A stretch of DNA of 24,183 nt from IMG/VR virus record IMGVR_UViG_3300042988_002075, positions 1 to 24,183 of that record; one strand, written 5' to 3'. The number at the start of each line of letters is the position of its first letter. The stretch's first letter is position 1. The notes beneath the pieces were generated by a model. It was given only the letters and a program-made list of their open reading frames with translations. It was not told the origin of the DNA and searched no databases. Positions 12,528-23,595 of the stretch are shown in pieces. A program made the position numbers and the translations under genes. The stretch comes from a virus.

Positions 12528-13814
12528 TTAAAACGCTGATACTATTGAAAGCACCTTGCTACGCTCTGATACACCAATACCATCTTCAAACAATGGCATG
12601 ATAGTAGCAAGCAAAGCTTTATCAACATCAAAGCCATCTGCAATCAAACTTGCAGCTTGAATAGTATGACGAACAGACACAGGTGTAGAAAGCTCCTGCT
12701 CTTTGTATTGCTTGCGAATCTCATTAGAGACACGAACAATAGCAGTTGCAGCTTTCTCATCAATACCAGTACGCAATTTTAGCACGTTGATCTCATCCTT
12801 TTCTGTAGGATAACCTAATTCAATAGGAAAGAAACGATCCAACAATGCACGGTCAATTGAGTGAGTACCTGAATACTCAGAACCAAGGTTAGCAGTTGCA
12901 AAGAAAACAGTGTTTTCATCAACAGCAATCTTACGGTCACAATCTTCACATGCAATATCTACTGGTAAATAACGTCTTTTATCCAAACAAGGAAATAAGA
13001 TGTTGTTAGCTGCCAGTGGAGAACGGTTAAGCTCATCCAATAACATAATACCACCAGACTGAATGTTATGAACAAAAGGAGCAAACTCAAATGATGAGTG
13101 ACCTTCTTTGTTCAAACGGTGAACACCAAGCAATGCTGACTGAGCATCTTGCACAGTACCCATGTCTTGGATGTACATGTTCTTTTCCATTGCTAAGGCA
13201 AGGTGAGATACAATTTCTGTTTTACCAGAACCTGTTGGGCCTATCAACAATGTATTTTCACCTCTCAACACGTTTCTCACAAGTAAGAACCACATGTCAG
13301 GATCAATATGAAAACCACAGTCATCAACAGACGGCACAGGATAATTGGCAGCAATGGTTCTCTTCAAGTTTGTACCTGAAGGAATTTCACCACCTTCAAT
13401 AGGTTTAGGAGCAATCATGGCATCCCAGTCATATTCATAACCATAAGATGCAAATTGCTCAGCCATCAATTTAGCTTTTTCAAAGCCGTATTCATCACTG
13501 TCAATCATGTAATTTACAGTAAAGTCAGCTAGTTGCTGAAGACGGTCTTTCTCTACATGTGCTAAAGGAAACACTGTACCATCATAAAAGACAGCAACAA
13601 CATTTTCTTTGCGAATGTGTAAGTGATCATCTTCTGGGAAATCATAACCATCAGTGATGAAGATAGTTCCCAAAGGATATTTGGCAAATTCTGCAATTGG
13701 AGACGTAATCTTCATATCATCAATGTGACGAGTCAAAGATTTTTCAAATGCTTGTTTAGGAAGAGTTCTTACTTGATAACTAGTTCCACTAATAAATGAT
13801 TGTAATAGGATCAT
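12528..13814 (-). CDS. MoxR/CobS-type AAA+ ATPase
   Basis: Walker A is GPTGSGKT (192-199), Walker B is IMLLDELNR (256-264), and sensor 1 is FATAN (305-309). The arginine finger lies in DRALLDRFF (321-329), and sensor 2 is in PVSVRHT (378-384). The order and spacing are those of the MoxR family, including the CobS branch that partners CobT-like VWA proteins. The N-terminal 150 residues are an unassigned domain. The protein should form a hexameric ATP-driven remodelling ring whose substrate is selected by the downstream VWA protein. CobS-like genes are known from marine T4-like phages. The start is the ATG 25 bp after the previous gene, in an A/T-only leader. Confidence 0.93.
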   Translation of the reverse strand: MILLQSFISGTSYQVRTLPKQAFEKSLTRHIDDMKITSPIAEFAKYPLGTIFITDGYDFPEDDHLHIRKENVVAVFYDGTVFPLAHVEKDRLQQLADFTVNYMIDSDEYGFEKAKLMAEQFASYGYEYDWDAMIAPKPIEGGEIPSGTNLKRTIAANYPVPSVDDCGFHIDPDMWFLLVRNVLRGENTLLIGPTGSGKTEIVSHLALAMEKNMYIQDMGTVQDAQSALLGVHRLNKEGHSSFEFAPFVHNIQSGGIMLLDELNRSPLAANNILFPCLDKRRYLPVDIACEDCDRKIAVDENTVFFATANLGSEYSGTHSIDRALLDRFFPIELGYPTEKDEINVLKLRTGIDEKAATAIVRVSNEIRKQYKEQELSTPVSVRHTIQAASLIADGFDVDKALLATIMPLFEDGIGVSERSKVLSIVSAF

Positions 13815-13839
13815 CTTGATTTGTTTTTTAAATTTTTAA

Positions 13840-14424
13840 TTAATGAATTTCAAAACCATTACAGTTTTCTAAAAAAAGAGCAAACTCTTCTAAATTGTCA
13901 ACATTTGTACCGTGAGATGCTTCATAGTCAACTCCATTAAGAGTTGGCGCTTCAAAGAATAACCCAGGGTATTTTTCATTTAACTTGTCAATAAGTTCTT
14001 GATCATCAATGGATTTTCCACCATTTAACTGCTTGTCTTTAAAATGCCACCAGCCTGTGTTCAAATACACAACCTTGTTATCATCTTTTTTCATTTGTTC
14101 AACAAACTGCTTGAAACAAGATGCTAATTGTTCACAATGACCTTTATCTTTTACACCATTTCCACCATTGCTCCCTAAAGATTTGATTTCATCTTCAGGA
14201 ATGTTCAAGTTATATGATTCATTAAAGACAGTAATCAGTATTTGAATAGGACGCCAATGCCACCAGTTATTTCTAAAGTAATAACCTGGATTTTCTTGCT
14301 CCCATTCTTCTGTCAAATCCCAAAAAGCTTTCTGATCATCAGAGTCTAAATCTTGATAATCATCAGGTATTTCTGGCTTAGGTTTTGTCAGTTTTGGACT
14401 AATTCCATAAATGTCTACTCCCAT
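13840..14424 (-). CDS. Phage 'GVDIYG...YFRNNWW' protein
   Basis: The N-terminus MGVDIYGISPKL and the block YYFRNNWWHWRPI (residues 48-60) match a common phage family of unknown function. In that family the pattern 'MGxDxYGxxP...GxYFRNNxWxWRPL' is conserved. A later GSNGGNGVKDKGHCEQLA segment and the DDQELIDKLNEKYPGLF helix are additional conserved-looking parts. The aromatic clusters suggest a ligand- or sugar-binding surface, but this is guesswork. The upstream leader contains the hairpins at 14.47-14.56 kb. Confidence 0.7.
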   Translation of the reverse strand: MGVDIYGISPKLTKPKPEIPDDYQDLDSDDQKAFWDLTEEWEQENPGYYFRNNWWHWRPIQILITVFNESYNLNIPEDEIKSLGSNGGNGVKDKGHCEQLASCFKQFVEQMKKDDNKVVYLNTGWWHFKDKQLNGGKSIDDQELIDKLNEKYPGLFFEAPTLNGVDYEASHGTNVDNLEEFALFLENCNGFEIH

Positions 14425-14466
14425 AATTATAAGTGCTTGATTGTTAGTACATTTTTAGTACCTACA

Positions 14467-14505
14467 TAGTCACCAGTGACCACCTATGGTATTCACCAGT
14501 GACTA
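14467..14505 (-). promoter_or_regulatory. Leader hairpin with paired TCACCAGTGAC repeats
   Basis: The 11-bp sequence TCACCAGTGAC occurs at 14470-14480 and again at 14493-14503, and each copy is itself nearly palindromic. As minus-strand RNA the two 13-nt arms (14467-14479 and 14493-14505) pair completely, with two G-U pairs. The hairpin ends 43 bp before the start of the 194-residue protein. Part of it (GTGACCACC, 14477-14485) can instead pair with 14550-14558. It may be an operator, a leader structure or a terminator. Confidence 0.55.
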
Positions 14506-14544
14506 GTAAGTAAAGAGAAGAATATAAAGAGAAAGCGAAAAAGT

Positions 14545-14564
14545 TCATGGGTGGTCACCCATGA
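14545..14564 (-). terminator. Probable intrinsic terminator
   Basis: TCATGGGTG-GT-CACCCATGA is a perfect inverted repeat 17 bp past the stop of the 142-residue gene. On the minus strand it is followed by ACTTTTTCGCTTT. The stem is strong but the T tract is imperfect, and it overlaps an alternative pairing with the 14.48-kb hairpin. Confidence 0.65.
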
Positions 14565-14581
14565 CCATGCTTCCTCTCATA

Positions 14582-15010
14582 TTATCCTTTAAAATCATTG
14601 ATGTTGAAGCCATCTTCATCGCCTTCATCTTCTGATAAACCAAGGTCATTTTTAACTTGGTCACGAAGTGCTTCAAGTTTGTCAATGTCTCCATTCTTTA
14701 AAGCTTCACGTGCTTGCTCTTCAAAGTTTCTGATTTTGTCAACCATTTCTTTTGGAAGCTTGTTCATCATGCGTGATGCATCTTCAATACTTTGAAACTT
14801 TTCGTGAATAGAATCACGTGCTTCTTCCAATTTTGCAATTGCAAGATCCAACATTCCTAGTGTTTGAAAAGGAGTACCTTTTACTTTAACAGCACTTCCA
14901 ACAGGAAGACCGTTTTCATCTGCTTCAATACAGATTAACACATGATCATTAAAAGATTTACTTTTTTCTTCTAGGTCATGCAATTGCGATAAAATTGAAT
15001 TTTTGGACAT
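14582..15010 (-). CDS. Coiled-coil hypothetical protein, 142 aa
   Basis: This acidic helical protein has an N-terminal coiled coil (ILSQLHDLEEKSKSFNDH), a short beta segment VLICIEADENGLPVGSAVKV, and then long helices to the end. The tail is Asp/Glu-rich (LGLSEDEGDEDGFNINDFKG). The middle 'KGTPFQTLGMLDLAIAKLEE' looks conserved, but I do not know the family. It starts 11 bp after the winged-helix gene and ends before a probable terminator. Confidence 0.65.
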   Translation of the reverse strand: MSKNSILSQLHDLEEKSKSFNDHVLICIEADENGLPVGSAVKVKGTPFQTLGMLDLAIAKLEEARDSIHEKFQSIEDASRMMNKLPKEMVDKIRNFEEQAREALKNGDIDKLEALRDQVKNDLGLSEDEGDEDGFNINDFKG

Positions 15011-15021
15011 AATTATTGATT

Positions 15022-15297
15022 TTAAGAGTTTTTACGTTTATCCATCAAATTGTAGGTGATGGTTTTCCTTTGAGTTGGGTCATACAACCTTTGTATAACA
15101 CCCTTTTCTATTAATTCTTTGAGCAGACGTTGGACAGTACTTTTACTTTTGCCAGACATCTTTGAAAGAGTTGATAATGCGGGATAGCAGTAATCTTTGC
15201 TCCCACAAAGCGAACAAACAATGGCGTATAGTCCTTTTGCTTCTAAAGAAATTAACTCAGAATAGGACACAACATTGTTTATTCTACCGTAGTTCAT
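15022..15297 (-). CDS. Winged helix-turn-helix protein
   Basis: After MNYGRINNVVSYSELISLEA the protein has KGLYAIVCSLCGSKDYCYPA, then LSTLSKMSGKSKSTVQRLLKEL and EKGVIQRLY. This is the replication-initiator-like / DnaD-like wHTH layout: first helix 'AKGLYAxL', recognition helix 'SxSTVxRxLKEL' and a wing. It likely binds DNA as a regulator or replication factor. I start at the ATG at 15297, giving 91 aa and a 14-bp overlap; the longer frame begins with TTG inside the upstream gene. The wing ends in a basic tail (NLMDKRKNS). Confidence 0.8.
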   Translation of the reverse strand: MNYGRINNVVSYSELISLEAKGLYAIVCSLCGSKDYCYPALSTLSKMSGKSKSTVQRLLKELIEKGVIQRLYDPTQRKTITYNLMDKRKNS

Positions 15298-15607
15298 CTG
15301 CAAGTTGTTTAAAGTTATCGTCACATTCTTGTAATAGCTCAACAATGGGCCCAAGCTTTGCAACAACTGCTTTTGACAACTTGTAATACTCAGTAGATTT
15401 AAACTTCTGAATGTGCTCGTCTGATACTTGCATAACTGCTGTGCCTTTGCCCATTGGCGTATTCACAACTTTAGAGATTTGGTTCTTACTTAATCCTTCT
15501 TCAAGGTCATCTATATACTTTTTGAAGCGATAATAGATGATCATGATTTCAGAATTGCTAAGTCCACCATATTTGATGGACTCAGCTGTTTCTTCTGTTT
15601 TAACCAT
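15284..15607 (-). CDS. Hypothetical helical protein, 107 aa
   Basis: This mainly helical protein contains LSNSEIMIIYYRFKKYIDD, then QISKVVNTPMGKGTAVMQVSD and a C-terminal helix to LADELR. The family was not recognised. Its start shares one base with the upstream stop and its end overlaps the winged-helix gene, so the three genes from 16146 to 15022 are tightly coupled and probably function together. Confidence 0.65.
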   Translation of the reverse strand: MVKTEETAESIKYGGLSNSEIMIIYYRFKKYIDDLEEGLSKNQISKVVNTPMGKGTAVMQVSDEHIQKFKSTEYYKLSKAVVAKLGPIVELLQECDDNFKQLADELR

Positions 15608-16146
15608 TAGATTGATACATTTTGAATTGTAATTGAATGAAAGTTTTTAGGTAATAGCTTACGTCTGATAAACTCGTCAATCACTTCTTTAGTTGATATA
15701 CCAAGACTTCTCAGTGTAATGTTCTTAGGTAATTCCAAGAACCAATCATGATCTTTAGAACCAATGTTAAATGACGGGAAAATAGCGTTCATCAGCTTTG
15801 TTTCAGCGTGATAATACTTTTTAGCCTTCATTATGTGTAAAGCTCTTTTAGCTTTTTTGTAGTCTTCAACAATTTTTGACAATGCTGAAGGTGACAACGA
15901 TGCAATTTGTTCAGGTGCATACTCTTTCAACCCATACATCAAACGTCTAAACATTTGGCGTTGAACCATGTTTAGATGATATTTTTCTAAATCTGTGCTT
16001 GTTTTTGCAATGTGTGCAGGCTTGTAGTTTGATTTAGATTGAAATGTTTGAGCATAGCGTTCCATTTGAACTTTGCCAGTGTTGTCATAAGACACAAGAC
16101 CTTGTGCCGTTGCTGTGATGTTAGTAAATTTCTTCATTGTAGACAT
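15607..16146 (-). CDS. Basic hypothetical protein, 179 aa
   Basis: This is a lysine/arginine-rich, helical protein (LNMVQRQMFRRLMYGLKEYA; VEDYKKAKRALHIMKAKKYY). The C-terminal part has LPKNITLRSLGISTKEVIDEF. Basic character and position directly before the winged-helix gene suggest nucleic-acid binding, but I see no recognised motif. It lies 56 bp after a terminator, so a promoter for this three-gene unit may sit in 16147-16200, although I cannot point to a convincing one. Confidence 0.65.
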   Translation of the reverse strand: MSTMKKFTNITATAQGLVSYDNTGKVQMERYAQTFQSKSNYKPAHIAKTSTDLEKYHLNMVQRQMFRRLMYGLKEYAPEQIASLSPSALSKIVEDYKKAKRALHIMKAKKYYHAETKLMNAIFPSFNIGSKDHDWFLELPKNITLRSLGISTKEVIDEFIRRKLLPKNFHSITIQNVSI

Positions 16147-16201
16147 TTTAAGAGTAAATTTTAAGAAGTAACGCTTGATGCGTTGTAATTGTCAAAAGAA
16201 A

Positions 16202-16223
16202 AGCCTGGTGTTTCCACCAAGCT
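16202..16223 (-). terminator. Intrinsic terminator with GAAA loop
   Basis: The minus-strand RNA AGCUUGGUG-GAAA-CACCAGGCU is a 9-bp stem with one U-G pair and a GNRA tetraloop, followed by UUUCUUUU. It lies 6 bp after the stop of the 67-residue membrane protein. Confidence 0.9.
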
Positions 16224-16229
16224 CTTCAC

Positions 16230-16433
16230 TTATTTTCTGTAGATTACAGTATCTAAATCAAAAAGATTTGAGACAAGCTGTACAAAAAGAATAGGAACCA
16301 TTGTAAAAGGGGCTAATATAAACATCAGCAAATCTCCTACAGTAAGCATCTCATCTTTAGAGATTGTCATAACCATAAATGCAAATCCCATTGCATAGGT
16401 TAATAGCAAATAAATAATCAAAACAAATTCCAT
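16230..16433 (-). CDS. Two-helix membrane protein, 67 aa
   Basis: Hydrophobic stretches at residues 2-23 and 34-56 predict two transmembrane helices separated by a short charged loop (TISKDEM). It is two genes downstream of a signal-anchored glucosaminidase, so a holin-like or lysis-accessory role is possible, but no family signature supports it. The start follows the upstream stop by 1 bp. Confidence 0.65.
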   Translation of the reverse strand: MEFVLIIYLLLTYAMGFAFMVMTISKDEMLTVGDLLMFILAPFTMVPILFVQLVSNLFDLDTVIYRK

Positions 16434-16434
16434 T

Positions 16435-16626
16435 TTAATCTTTCTTTAGGTTAATGTGATTTTGTACATTCTCATGTACATCTTGTTGTACAGATTCTTG
16501 TTTTAAAGACTCTGCATACTGCTTTTCTTCCAGATACTTATTGTACCAGTACTCATCATCAAAATGAGGATCGTTTTGAATCTCTTGCTCACGCTTCAGC
16601 ATGAACACTTCTTTCATTCTTCCCAT
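16435..16626 (-). CDS. Hypothetical charged protein, up to 63 aa
   Basis: This hydrophilic helical protein contains NDPHFDDEYWYNKYLEEKQYAE and a Gln/Asn/His-rich end. Three in-frame ATG codons (16626, 16617, 16602) are possible starts. The last would reduce the overlap with the upstream gene from 38 to 14 bp, which is more like the other junctions here. Family unknown. Confidence 0.55.
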   Translation of the reverse strand: MGRMKEVFMLKREQEIQNDPHFDDEYWYNKYLEEKQYAESLKQESVQQDVHENVQNHINLKKD

Positions 16627-16924
16627 TGGCTTCTAATTTATTTAGTTTAATCATTCCATGTTTGGGATTCTGTAAGTCCATCAAGAAGTATTCATTGTCA
16701 ATGTCATACAAGTATTCAGGAGAAGCAAAATTCATTGCATCTTTCATACTGTAAAATTCTCTTGATTTGAATTCTCTTGAGGATCTATTCATGACTAAGA
16801 TTTTATACTTAGGCATGGGAACATCGTCAATTGCTTTGACTTTCTGAACAATGCGATCAAATTCCTCTTTGGAAGTTATCAGCAAGTTCTTTAACTTTAC
16901 TAACATAGCTGGGTGATTCTGCAT
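16589..16924 (-). CDS. Hypothetical protein, up to 111 aa
   Basis: The core reads PKYKILVMNRSSREFKSREF, then YSMKDAMNFASPEYLYD, a beta-beta-alpha arrangement seen in small phage proteins of unknown role. The start is uncertain. ATG at 16924 or 16906 overlaps the glucosaminidase gene by 50-68 bp, which is long for this genome. ATG at 16816 would begin exactly at the conserved-looking core and leave a 40-bp gap. I give the longest frame. Confidence 0.55.
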   Translation of the reverse strand: MQNHPAMLVKLKNLLITSKEEFDRIVQKVKAIDDVPMPKYKILVMNRSSREFKSREFYSMKDAMNFASPEYLYDIDNEYFLMDLQNPKHGMIKLNKLEANGKNERSVHAEA

Positions 16925-17420
16925 AATTTTCTTTTAAGTATTGATAATAGCCTTCTTCAGTTCTAATCTTTGTAAGAAATGCACATTGAAACAATGCGTA
17001 ATCAACTACACTTTCACGCCAATGACCATAGACAGCATGACCTAAGTCAGTACCAAGGTTTGTTGTTGCGCGAACTTTTGCTTCTTTCATTCCAAACAGA
17101 TTGTTATTAGAATTAAAGATTTTGCTTTGAAAGTTTCCTGTTTCAAGTACAGCTTGAGCGTATACTATATGAGGAAATCTGATATTCAATTGCAATAGAT
17201 ACTCTTTGAACTTTTCTTCAGAGAATTTGTCATTTTCTCTAATGATTATCATTCGTTCTTCAGGTGTAACTGTACCTGTAGCATGAGCTTTGTACCCTCT
17301 GTAGTGACCTGTTGTATAAGATACAAGAGTAGTAAATACAATTGCAGCTAATATAAAAGCACTAGTTTTGAAAAACACTGACTCAAACTTGAGTGTTGTC
17401 CTGTTAAATTTGTAAATCAT
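16857..17420 (-). CDS. Signal-anchored glucosaminidase-type peptidoglycan hydrolase
   Basis: Residues 17-36 form one transmembrane helix after a short basic start, placing the enzyme domain in the periplasm. From about residue 66 the sequence has the GH73-type glucosaminidase features: the segment IVYAQAVLETGNFQSKIF with the likely catalytic Glu93, then NNLFGMK and a YGHWRESVVDYALFQ segment with the conserved Trp-x-x-Ser-x-x-Asp-Tyr. The predicted reaction is hydrolysis of GlcNAc-MurNAc bonds. In a phage this suggests a signal-anchored endolysin or wall-remodelling enzyme. I start at the ATG at 17420; the frame extends to a TTG at 17528, but that would run into another reading frame with coding character. 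Confidence 0.88.
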   Translation of the reverse strand: MIYKFNRTTLKFESVFFKTSAFILAAIVFTTLVSYTTGHYRGYKAHATGTVTPEERMIIIRENDKFSEEKFKEYLLQLNIRFPHIVYAQAVLETGNFQSKIFNSNNNLFGMKEAKVRATTNLGTDLGHAVYGHWRESVVDYALFQCAFLTKIRTEEGYYQYLKENYAESPSYVSKVKELADNFQRGI

Positions 17421-18779: not shown

Positions 18780-19012
18780 GTTAGTTTATTTGAATGAATA
18801 CTAATATTATAGCTATCTAGTGACACGTGTGACACTGTTTTCTGAGAATTTTTTTTGACTAATATATGTGGAGAGGTGGAACTCTCATCCACTCTCTCGC
18901 ACACAATTAATTGTTTTTCAACTACTTACAAAGAAGTTTTTAATTACTTCTAGATACTTTGTCATGTGACACCTAAGTTTACCCCATGTTAATTAGAAAA
19001 AACTGCAGAAGA
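18780..19012. other. 233-bp region without a gene
   Basis: I see no convincing coding sequence on either strand. It holds a near-palindrome, AGTGACACGTGTGACACT (18819-18836), with a perfect ACACGTGT core. It also holds a bulged hairpin (GAGAGGTGG at 18871-18879 with CCAC at 18889-18892 and CTCTC at 18894-18898). It is probably the leader and promoter region for the minus-strand genes that follow. Confidence 0.5.
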
Positions 19013-19033
19013 TACAGGGCATTACACCCTGTA
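19013..19033 (-). terminator. Intrinsic terminator after paralogue A
   Basis: TACAGGG and CCCTGTA form a perfect 7-bp stem with a 7-nt loop about 20 bp past the stop. On the minus strand a GTTTTTTC tract follows after about a dozen bases. Confidence 0.75.
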
Positions 19034-19053
19034 CCAACTACAATTAGTTCATA

Positions 19054-19545
19054 TTATTGGAATGAAGCGCTGTTAGCAGTAAGTGCTTTACTCTCTACTA
19101 CAGCAGTTACGTTGTCGTGTGCTACTTTTACATCAGTATCAGTACCACTTCCATCATAACTTGTGAAACGCAAAATGCGTTCTCCACCAAGAGTTAACTC
19201 AATACCATCTGCACCTGCGCGTTTTACGTAAGGAGCAATAGCATCTTCATAAGCTAATTCTTTATTGAAGAACTTTGCAGCAATATCTTCTGGCACTTCG
19301 CTTTCAAGATATTCTTTTACTACAATTGCACCTGGCAATTGAAGACTTTTGTGAGCGCTAACAAACTTGGTTAACAAGTCCATTTTAGCACGCAATAGAG
19401 TAGAGCGTTTGCTCTCTCTAATCCAACCACCGTCAACAGTGATTGCAGTTTGTTGAAGCTGAACATAACCATATTCAGCGTTGTTCTGATAAGCAGTGAT
19501 TACACTACCTGTCTTTGAGTTAGGAACGATTTGTACTTGAGACAT
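19054..19545 (-). CDS. Paralogue A of a duplicated phage protein, 163 aa
   Basis: This protein is a clear paralogue of the gene at 20141-20635. Both begin with xVQIxPxxxTGxxIxAYxNN, have a GGWxR...RSxLLRA helix start and share VVKE..ESEVPE. The C-terminal third is almost identical, including LAYEDAIAPYVKRAG and DGIELTLGGERILRFT. The predicted fold is alpha/beta and soluble; I do not recognise the family. Each copy has its own terminator and the same upstream motif, suggesting strong or specially timed expression. No cysteine or catalytic pattern is visible, so a binding or structural role is more likely than an enzyme. Confidence 0.8.
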   Translation of the reverse strand: MSQVQIVPNSKTGSVITAYQNNAEYGYVQLQQTAITVDGGWIRESKRSTLLRAKMDLLTKFVSAHKSLQLPGAIVVKEYLESEVPEDIAAKFFNKELAYEDAIAPYVKRAGADGIELTLGGERILRFTSYDGSGTDTDVKVAHDNVTAVVESKALTANSASFQ

Positions 19546-19586
19546 AATTCTAATTTTTAATTGTTAATACTTTAATGATTTGGGGG

Positions 19587-19624
19587 TTTAGGTGTTGTTG
19601 TATTCAGGGGTAATTAAGGTGTTG
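19587..19624 (-). promoter_or_regulatory. Repeated motif, two copies, upstream of paralogue A
   Basis: On the minus strand CAACACCTAAA (19587-19597, followed by CCCCC) lies 42 bp before the start codon, and CAACACCTTAA (19614-19624) lies 27 bp further upstream. The same motif occurs before four other genes in the next 1.6 kb. It is probably a promoter element or regulator site; the exact role is unknown. Confidence 0.6.
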
Positions 19625-19700
19625 AGTTTGGCTTGAGAAAAAACTGTTCTGTTGTTTTTGTCTTTGGGATACTCAACCACCCCAACCTGTTTATTTGAAA

Positions 19701-19732
19701 AAACTGAGGAAAGATAATTCTCTCCTCAGTTT
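19701..19732 (-). terminator. Intrinsic terminator after the 98-aa gene
   Basis: AAACTGAGGA and TCCTCAGTTT form a perfect 10-bp stem with a 12-nt loop. The minus-strand 3' side runs on as TTTC. It starts 8 bp after the stop codon. Confidence 0.9.
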
Positions 19733-19739
19733 CTAAGTT

Positions 19740-20036
19740 TTAATGACAGTACATTACATCATCTTCAATGCGAAAGTACACGCTTGCATTTCTGAAGCGA
19801 AACTTACCATTGTCAGTGTCGTGCCACTGTATAAGTGTTGTGAAGTCTAACAACTCAATTCTGTAAAGTATTGTCCAAGAGTTGTTAATCTTTCTTGTTA
19901 CTACTTCCTCAGATTTGTTGTCAAGGAATGGTCTGAGAACATCACCACCTCTGCTGTATGCAGATAATGATATGTAAGCAACGTTCTCAAATGGGTTAAC
20001 TTCAATTTTTTTTCCAATGTTAAAGTGAGTCATCAT
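19740..20036 (-). CDS. Hypothetical beta-rich protein, 98 aa
   Basis: The pattern of short hydrophobic strands (KKIEVNPFENVAYISLSAYS, then TILYRIELLDFTTLIQW and FRFRNASVYFRIEDDVMYCH) suggests an all-beta domain. No family was recognised. It is a single-gene unit between its own terminator and an upstream motif copy. Two consecutive ATG codons (20036, 20033) could serve as start. Confidence 0.65.
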   Translation of the reverse strand: MMTHFNIGKKIEVNPFENVAYISLSAYSRGGDVLRPFLDNKSEEVVTRKINNSWTILYRIELLDFTTLIQWHDTDNGKFRFRNASVYFRIEDDVMYCH

Positions 20037-20071
20037 GATATATAAGATTTAAATGTTGAGTATTATAGGAG

Positions 20072-20082
20072 TTAAGGTGTTC
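20072..20082 (-). promoter_or_regulatory. Repeated upstream motif
   Basis: GAACACCTTAA, followed by CTCC on the minus strand, lies 36 bp before the ATG of the 98-residue gene. It matches the motif before the neighbouring units at all but one or two positions. Confidence 0.55.
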
Positions 20083-20104
20083 TAATGGAATATTAATAAA
20101 GAGA

Positions 20105-20128
20105 ACCAGACCCTGTGTAGAGTCTGGT
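20105..20128 (-). terminator. Intrinsic terminator after paralogue B
   Basis: ACCAGAC and GTCTGGT form a 7-bp stem with a 10-nt loop, followed on the minus strand by TCTCTTTATT. It lies 12 bp past the stop. Confidence 0.8.
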
Positions 20129-20140
20129 CTCTTCAATTAG

Positions 20141-20635
20141 TTATTCAGGTAATGCAGCGCCAGTAGCTGTCACGTTAGCACGTGCTTCTACCACAGCTCC
20201 AACATTATCATGAGCTACGCGGATGTCTTGGTCATTACCAGATCCGTCATAGTCAGTGAAACGCAAGATACGCTCACCACCTAAAGTTAGCTCAATGCCG
20301 TCTTTACCAGCACGCTTAACATATGGTGCAATAGCGTCCTCATATGCAAGGTTCTTGTTAAAGCGAGATGCAAAGTTCTCAGGCACTTCAGACTCTACAA
20401 ATTCCTTTACAACAATACGTCCTGGAATAGCACCAGACTTACCATATACTTGAACGAATTTTTCAAGCAATGATACTTCAGCGCGCAATAGCGCACTACG
20501 TACTTTGTTACGCACCCAGCCACCTTCAACACTCATCTCTTCAGATTGTAGTGTGATGTAACCGTAAGCAGGATTGTTTTTGTAGGCGTTAATGATTGCG
20601 CCAGTTTCAGATGGTTTAATTTGTACTTTGTTCAT
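20141..20635 (-). CDS. Paralogue B of a duplicated phage protein, 164 aa
   Basis: This is the second copy of the family at 19054-19545, with the same length and layout. N-terminal MNKVQIKPSETGAIINAYKN, then GGWVRNKVRSALLRA, VVKEFVESEVPENFA and the near-identical C-terminal block around LAYEDAIAPYVKRAGKDGIE. The N-terminal third and the extreme C-terminus diverge more, so the shared block is probably the functional core. The two genes are separated by the unrelated 98-aa gene, so the duplication is either old or the insertion came later. Family and function are unknown to me. Confidence 0.8.
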   Translation of the reverse strand: MNKVQIKPSETGAIINAYKNNPAYGYITLQSEEMSVEGGWVRNKVRSALLRAEVSLLEKFVQVYGKSGAIPGRIVVKEFVESEVPENFASRFNKNLAYEDAIAPYVKRAGKDGIELTLGGERILRFTDYDGSGNDQDIRVAHDNVGAVVEARANVTATGAALPE

Positions 20636-20673
20636 GATTTTTGATTTTAAATTGTTATTGATTTATTAAGGAT

Positions 20674-20684
20674 TTAAGTTGTTG
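20674..20684 (-). promoter_or_regulatory. Repeated upstream motif
   Basis: CAACAACTTAA, followed by ATCCTTAA on the minus strand, lies 39 bp before the ATG of paralogue B. It directly follows the hairpin at 20687-20719 that closes the previous unit. Confidence 0.55.
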
Positions 20685-20686
20685 AA

Positions 20687-20719
20687 GGATGTAGGAAGAT
20701 TATTTCTCTTCCCACATCC
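20687..20719 (-). terminator. Hairpin overlapping the end of the 75-aa gene
   Basis: GGATGTAGGAAGA pairs with TCTTCCCACATCC at 12 of 13 positions across a 7-nt loop. The stem includes the last codons and the stop of the 75-residue gene. No T tract follows; the sequence runs straight into the upstream motif of paralogue B. It may end or stabilise the transcript. Confidence 0.55.
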
Positions 20720-20927
20720 ATTGACCTACAGCAATGAAGAATGCAATTCCAGTGAAGAAATTGAATACCCACATTGGTGTAGATGACGTAACGTCTGAGA
20801 ATGTCAGATGCGTTAATAGTGATAAGCAACCAGCTAATGTAGCTGTGATGATTGTGATCATGATCATTGGCAATACGAACAATGCAATGATCTGTACAGG
20901 AAGTACCATTCTTTTGAGATGTCTCAT
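20700..20927 (-). CDS. Two-helix membrane protein, 75 aa
   Basis: After a basic MRHLKRM start, hydrophobic stretches at residues 8-38 and 52-68 predict two transmembrane helices. The end is WMWEEK. No family was recognised. It is one of five single-gene units in this stretch, with the shared motif 42 bp before its ATG. Confidence 0.65.
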   Translation of the reverse strand: MRHLKRMVLPVQIIALFVLPMIMITIITATLAGCLSLLTHLTFSDVTSSTPMWVFNFFTGIAFFIAVGQWMWEEK

Positions 20928-20968
20928 GAGTTTAAATTTAGAGTTATTAATATTGATTTGTTAAGGGG

Positions 20969-20979
20969 TTTAGCTGTTG
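20969..20979 (-). promoter_or_regulatory. Repeated upstream motif
   Basis: CAACAGCTAAA, followed by CCCCTTAACAA on the minus strand, lies 42 bp before the ATG of the 75-residue gene. It is the closest match to the copy before paralogue A. Confidence 0.6.
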
Positions 20980-21002
20980 AATGACAAGGCTTATATATAA
21001 TA

Positions 21003-21038
21003 AACACAGAGACACTCTTGTTAGAACATCTCTGTGTT
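21003..21038 (-). terminator. Intrinsic terminator after the 33-aa gene
   Basis: AACACAGAGA and TCTCTGTGTT form a perfect 10-bp stem; inside, TCT and AGA add a smaller stem around TGTT. On the minus strand TATTATATAT follows. It lies 22 bp past the stop codon. Confidence 0.8.
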
Positions 21039-21060
21039 GGTGCTGTGCAGGTGACACTTC

Positions 21061-21162
21061 TCAGTGTCTGTCCTCCTTGCAGTAGTCCATGAAGTATTTG
21101 TATGCTTCACGCATGGACTTGGCAAGGATTTGATGTCCTGCAATTAAATACCAATGATACAT
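21061..21162 (-). CDS. Hypothetical peptide, 33 aa
   Basis: The ATG at 21162 opens MYHWYLIAGHQILAKSM, ending FMDYCKEDRH, an amphipathic helix-like peptide. The frame extends upstream to 21285, but that part is G/C-rich, Pro/Thr-rich and unlike the neighbours. The true start is supported by the upstream motif at 21197-21207, 35 bp away, the same distance as in the other four units. Function unknown. Confidence 0.6.
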   Translation of the reverse strand: MYHWYLIAGHQILAKSMREAYKYFMDYCKEDRH

Positions 21163-21191
21163 AAGCTTTGATTTAATGTGCTGGTTCACAT

Positions 21192-21268
21192 GGGGGTATA
21201 GGTGTTGCGTGCGTTGGCGGGGGGATGTTGTGGTAGGGGGTACACCCTCTCTACTACACAGATGGGGG
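21192..21268. other. Cluster of four G runs
   Basis: Plus-strand runs of five or six G at 21192-21196, 21219-21224, 21236-21240 and 21264-21268 stand out in a strongly AT-rich genome. They could form a long-looped G-quadruplex on the plus strand. The first run is the CCCCC half of the upstream motif as read on the minus strand. Confidence 0.45.
21197..21207 (-). promoter_or_regulatory. Repeated upstream motif
   Basis: CAACACCTATA, followed by CCCCC on the minus strand, lies 35 bp before the ATG of the 33-residue gene. It is the first of the series of five units. Confidence 0.6.
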
Positions 21269-23367: not shown

Positions 23368-23595
23368 ATGGCAGAACAAGAAAAAGAACCAACAAGAGAT
23401 GAGGTTATTGCCTGGTATAAAAGCCAGATTGAACTAGCCTCATTACGTGCTGAGCTGGCAGAGTTACAAGCAAAGGCTGTAACTGAAGAAGCTAAGCGTA
23501 TTCAAGCAACAATCATGATTGCAAACATGACAACGCCTGATAATGCTGAAAACAAAAATACTGACGGACCAGGTGGAGCTGAGACTTCAGAGTAA
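23368..23595 (+). CDS. Short coiled-coil protein, 75 aa
   Basis: This helical protein contains TRDEVIAWYKSQIELASLRA, then ELAELQAKAVTEEAKRIQAT, a probable coiled coil over residues 15-52. It is followed by an Asn/Gly/Glu-rich disordered tail. It is the first gene in the rightward direction. I have seen similar small proteins at the head of phage structural or tRNA regions but know no function. The upstream promoter and the A/T-only leader support the start. Confidence 0.75.
   Translation: MAEQEKEPTRDEVIAWYKSQIELASLRAELAELQAKAVTEEAKRIQATIMIANMTTPDNAENKNTDGPGGAETSE

Follow-up and report, generated by a model that had tools for sequence, protein, structure and literature searches.

A conserved C-run/CAG element as a putative phage-specific promoter class at a module of single-gene units in an uncultured phage lineage apparently allied to Crassvirales

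We identified a short bipartite element in front of the genes of one small module in a viral DNA fragment from IMG/VR (hereafter the window, 24,183 nt), and this element very probably represents a phage-specific promoter class. Its deeply conserved core consists of a C-run (ACCCCC) followed, after 8-9 nt, by CAG, while a CAAC-type box in front of the C-run is more variable. The promoter reading is supported by the restriction of the element to one module, its strand-specific placement, the bipartite core, the concerted divergence of the copies, the presence of a phage RNA polymerase, and the contrast with host-type promoters. The motif would thus form the upstream part of a promoter for the single-gene units a, b, c, an optional d, and e, with a clade-specific CAAC-type box at approximately −25 to −16, the C-run at approximately −15 to −10, and CAG at the start. 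Transcripts starting at CAG would carry leaders of approximately 20-40 nt. The likeliest reader would be the phage's own giant crAss-type RNA polymerase with initiation at CAG, a proposal that we regard as evenly balanced.

The original prediction had described six copies of a motif on the minus strand of the window, and each was found where it had been placed. The elements to which these copies belong are as follows.

21181-21207, minus strand: putative promoter element a, CAACACCTATACCCCC-N8-CAG
20953-20979, minus strand: putative promoter element b, CAACAGCTAAACCCC-N9-CAA (CAG in close relatives)
20658-20684, minus strand: putative promoter element c, CAACAACTTAAATCC-N9-CAA, degenerate in the window clade (CCCCC-N8-CAG in others)
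20056-20082, minus strand: putative promoter element d, GAACACCTTAACTCC-N9-CAA
19605-19624, minus strand: extra upstream copy e1, CAACACCTTAATTACCCCTG, 27 bp before e2 in the window clade
19570-19597, minus strand: putative promoter element e2, CAACACCTAAACCCCC-N9-AAG, then TATTAA

As listed, only a has CAG as its putative initiator in the window; b, c, and d have CAA, and e has AAG. Elements c and d contain a short C-run, and copy e1 is without CAG at the right distance. When a weight matrix was built from five of the six sites, the left-out site ranked 1st to 6th among ~48,000 positions on both strands, and the cluster sites outranked every other position of the window. The loose consensus alone gave 24 matches compared with 16.7 expected in shuffles and is therefore unconvincing by itself, so that it is the matrix together with the placement that makes the motif convincing. 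No other gene of the window was preceded by the motif, as had been claimed. The bases intervening between the 11-mer and ATG numbered 34 (a), 41 (b), 38 (c), 35 (d), and 41 (e); the distances given earlier were each one larger through counting.

The five genes and the hairpins that follow them were arranged as below.

21061-21162, minus strand: gene a, a small ORF of 33 aa (MYHWYLIAGHQ...), with its start codon 20 nt past the A of CAG
21003-21038, minus strand: terminator of unit a, strong hairpin (z −4.1)
20700-20927, minus strand: gene b, 75 aa, hydrophobic
20691-20715, minus strand: hairpin at the end of b (z −4.4), without a U-run
20141-20635, minus strand: gene c, 164 aa, paralogue of e (65% identical)
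20097-20135, minus strand: terminator of unit c, strong hairpin (z −6.5)
19740-20036, minus strand: gene d, 98 aa
19699-19734, minus strand: terminator of unit d, strong hairpin (z −6.7)
19054-19545, minus strand: gene e, 163 aa, paralogue of c
18996-19050, minus strand: terminator of unit e, strong hairpin (z −7.5)

The earlier claim that each gene ends in its own hairpin or terminator thus held for a, c, d, and e, which have strong hairpins, but less clearly for b, whose hairpin may not be a terminator because it is without a U-run. The gene b product is probably membrane-bound, and relatives carry the b orthologue upstream of their gene c. No resemblance to c and e was seen for genes a, b, and d. 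An AlphaFold model of e made from 22 sequences reached a mean pLDDT of 87, whereas a 13-sequence model was poor. Fold matches of the model were SSB/PriB-like and stayed weak, so that a possible role of c and e as DNA-binding OB-fold/SSB proteins is only a lead.

Genes c and e were conserved in about 40 related IMG/VR loci, and a search of the c/e family in GTDB genome contigs gave no relatives. The motif cluster recurred at the same genes in seven records, in which sites a, b, c, e1, and e2 were kept. Gene d was missing from close relatives, where the c-to-e1 gap is 665-679 bp compared with 1,060 in the window. A protein search of viral contigs with d gave no match; its only homologue, which surfaced through the c/e search, lies between c and e in a distant contig (L057) and has its own ACACCCC-N8-CAG element. 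Gene d thus seems to behave as a sporadic cassette carrying its own promoter and terminator. One further site, f (CAACACCTGTACCCC, ~3 kb downstream in five relatives), was rejected; it falls within the reading frame of a 111-aa gene, is absent from the window, and was therefore treated as coding conservation.

Comparison among relatives redefined the element. The originally described motif is a real signal, although its CAACACCTAAA part is specific to the clade, and the deep conservation resides in the C-run and the downstream CAG. In distant relatives (protein identity from 60% down to 38%), the upstream box changes, and the C-run with CAG 8-9 nt on remains. The pattern C4+-N8/9-YAG was present in 26 of 53 upstream regions of the c/e family, compared with 0.8 in shuffles. 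When C-runs were taken without conditioning on CAG, 8 of the 12 dereplicated ones had [CT]AG downstream, always at offset 8 or 9. In an information profile of 29 dereplicated sites, for which the pattern used required the C-run and AG, conservation was seen at an A ahead of the C-run and at a T two positions ahead of the C of CAG, was weaker in the CAAC region, and was slight past CAG. The ACCCCC-N8/9-CAG core was also kept before the 28-35 aa ORF (gene a) in most relatives. Exceptions to the core are lineage L084 and some c-type sites.

The core was highly specific to the module locus. ACCCCC-N8/9-YAG gave 20 exact matches over seven ~120-kb genomes, 17 of them in the module locus, and the remaining three represent one conserved intergenic site elsewhere (G003, G004, and G006); a reversed control pattern gave two matches anywhere in the same seven genomes. 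Each genome holds only 2-6 copies of the core. In crAss001, phi14:2, cr116_1, Fpv3, and BS162P1, the core was not enriched (16 matches compared with 16 for the control), indicating that it is not transferable to phages with a characterised polymerase. De novo motif EM, applied to every upstream region in one genome, missed the box because only four sites exist there, and recovered instead a late-gene motif described below.

We then consider the possible reader. The source appears to be an uncultured phage lineage allied to Crassvirales, within or beside the order; its TerL shows ~25% identity both to Crassvirales and to Fpv3-type phages, and the portal and major head families together with CrAss_Ring_1 and Ring_2, hallmark structural genes of Crassvirales, were found. 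Relatives encode a giant protein of ~3,800-4,100 residues. The sequence GSDFDVDALY, with the DFDxD signature, is present in proteins of 3773 and 3782 aa and aligns with GSDFDIDKMY of the phi14:2 polymerase, and the giant protein matched the 'putative RNA polymerase' of Crassvirales records (tblastn E 2e-9). The alternative polymerase motif DxDGD was in no plausible protein, and DFDxD proved the right form; Pfam detected no polymerase domain in the giant proteins. The giant polymerase gene is present in all seven large (~120-kb) relatives, and we infer from the close relatives that the window phage also carries it, outside the window fragment. L016 encodes a giant late protein of 1510 aa (12600-17132, minus strand) with DUF5872, SET, and DUF5754 domains.

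The link between polymerase and element is one of co-occurrence. If the giant crAss-type polymerase recognises the putative promoter, the units would form an early module made independently of the host polymerase; against this reading, a polymerase responsible for an early gene set would be expected to have more sites than the 2-6 core copies per genome. The proposal that ACCCCC-N8/9-CAG is the recognition sequence of the crAss-type giant RNA polymerase is accordingly put forward as tentative, at a little short of even confidence. The promoter of the AR9 non-virion polymerase comprises a motif at −11 to −8, N6, and two bases at the start (PMC9209446). The element resembles it in having a short motif ~10 nt upstream of conserved bases at the start site, here a predicted one, with fixed spacing, and in occurring in a phage that encodes its own polymerase related to cellular enzymes. 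It differs in the C-run and CAG, in a spacer of 8-9 rather than 6, and in the additional upstream CAAC-type box. The likeness to crAss001 and phi14:2 lies in the giant DFDxD polymerase, a small group of early units, putative ones here, and the likely transcription of middle and/or late genes by the host polymerase (PMC8375218, PMC10136315); unlike here, the C-run/CAG core is unenriched in those phages. The accessible parts of these two papers gave no promoter consensus for the crAss giant polymerase. An N4-type hairpin promoter was rejected, as the window boxes are without self-pairing; being nearly free of G, the C-rich box cannot pair with itself.

The main rival explanation of the element, possible but rather unlikely, is a host RNA polymerase assisted by a phage DNA-binding factor on the CAAC/C-run box. 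In T4 MotA-dependent middle promoters, a phage-specific box replaces the −35 element. By analogy, TATTAA after the box would be a −10 element with the start ~7 nt further on, and the box would then span approximately −39 to −23. Consistent with this, e-type sites keep CAGTATTAAT across clades, the e1 copy and a tandem copy in L080 and L081 resemble activator sites, and the phage has a winged-helix HTH_36 protein (window 15022-15366), possibly an unrelated activator. However, TATTAA occurs only at e-type sites and a few others; a- and c-type sites do not retain it (CAGGCTTCTC, CAGGACACAA, and CAGTTCATT), although they do retain CAG at the fixed spacing. The putative module promoters share with T4 the use of a phage-specific box at several promoters, but no −10 hexamer is conserved across all sites, and Pfam scans of the G3 proteins tested revealed no MotA-like protein. 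Sigma70_r2 was found in none of nine genomes, with control ring proteins detected in 10 of 14 genomes, and Pfam scans also gave no sigma-70 family factor. A phage sigma factor is therefore a less likely reader than a phage polymerase or some other phage factor.

The distance between the core and the start codon bears on a further explanation, namely that the motif acts as an RNA leader element governing how the five messages are translated or how stable they are, in which case transcription would begin upstream of the motif. Most genes have the C-run/CAG core 35-55 nt upstream of ATG, and the distance is roughly constant in the window clade, as such a leader element would predict; the overall range, however, extends from ~35 to ~100 nt. 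In L067, L071-L074, L080, and L081, gene c begins ~97 nt past the core, and a leader hairpin lies in this interval. This hairpin, GCACTATGGCC-TTGAG-AATTATAGTGC (L067:1627-1730, L071:1499-1600, L080:1997-2096, and relatives), showed five pairs with compensatory changes in RNAalifold and had no Rfam match at the gathering score; another conserved leader (GTCGCTGCCTGCAATGTGCGAC) occurs in L064, L066, L075, and L076. Although structured leaders before c in some relatives could suit an RNA element, the structure is downstream of the core and not within it, and no folding was found in the window leaders of c and e. Furthermore, the element often begins right after the hairpin of the preceding unit, especially from b to c. 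A core ~97 nt from ATG, ahead of a structured leader, points to a mark of transcript start rather than to a translation element at fixed distance. Thus, between the two possibilities originally offered, the promoter gains support, whereas the motif itself as an RNA leader element is disfavoured and, in our estimate, improbable. Rfam at the gathering score returned only tRNAs for the window and no match for the module of four relatives. Two self-cleaving ribozymes were observed in relatives: a Hatchet downstream of gene e in L073 (4122-4258, plus strand; 81.5 bits, E 9e-16) and a Pistol in the same strand region of L067 (5302-5363, plus strand; 55 bits, E 9e-8).

The boxes diverge in concert. 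Over the first 11 nt, different genes within a genome were 83% identical, whereas the same gene compared across genomes showed 56% identity (three genomes; permutation p = 0.005). This co-divergence within each genome points to a shared trans-acting reader, since a single genome-specific protein reading every copy would produce such a pattern. Gene conversion could also cause it, but the unrelated genes a and b take part. That the copies are mere relics of tandem cassette duplication, alike by descent or gene conversion and not by function, is highly improbable: the paralogy of c and e and the greater likeness of copies within than between genomes fit it, but a, b, and d are unlike c and e, the similarity ends at the element while spacers and leaders differ, and CAG at fixed spacing persists across clades with otherwise diverged flanks.

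The putative promoter class is accompanied by two other promoter-like classes in the same genomes. The original observation that the motif does not resemble the Bacteroidota promoter holds for the module: no TAnnTTTG was found upstream of module genes. Bacteroidota primary-sigma promoters (TTTG / TAnnTTTG) occur elsewhere in the same phage genomes but not at the module; host-type TTTG-N-TAnnTTTG promoters precede other genes, e.g., the DnaB helicase. In the window, a 75-aa gene (23368-23595, plus strand) has an upstream host-type promoter, TTTG-N-TATATTTG, conserved in relatives. A third promoter-like motif, GTAWATTnTnnnTGTAG, belongs to late genes; it occurs on the late strand only, 8-43 nt upstream of starts, with exactly four copies each in G003, G004, and G006 and two in G009. 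The copies in G003 are as follows, and the same was found in G004 and G006.

G003:C1:52536-52552, minus strand: late motif
G003:C1:65878-65894, minus strand: late motif
G003:C1:72927-72943, minus strand: late motif
G003:C1:13105-13121, minus strand: late motif

Replication genes would thus use host-type promoters and late genes the third motif. The organisation of the five-gene module recalls the SPO1 host-takeover module, a cluster of small genes expressed early, in which many units have an individual promoter and terminator and host sigma-A promoters are used. Here too, small genes are clustered with their own putative promoter and terminator, but the gene content is unrelated and, unlike in SPO1, the promoters are not of the host sigma-A type. 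In crAss001, an early module of few genes is expressed within 10 min, which has been ascribed to the virion polymerase, and the host polymerase likely transcribes the middle and late genes (PMC8375218; see also PMC10136315). By analogy with that early module, we consider the five-gene module a candidate early module.

The giant RNA polymerase of crAss-like phages enters the cell with the phage, and the element represents a testable candidate for what this polymerase recognises. It is sharply defined, confined to one module, and co-diverging, and can serve directly as a template in tests in vitro and in vivo. If the polymerase does read it, the promoter signature of this polymerase class could be recognised in sequence, and four to six single-gene units would make up a minimal early regulon. 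The element would further allow early genes to be predicted from sequence in this uncultured lineage. Furthermore, three promoter-like classes on three gene sets in the same genomes make the transcription programme of this lineage testable.
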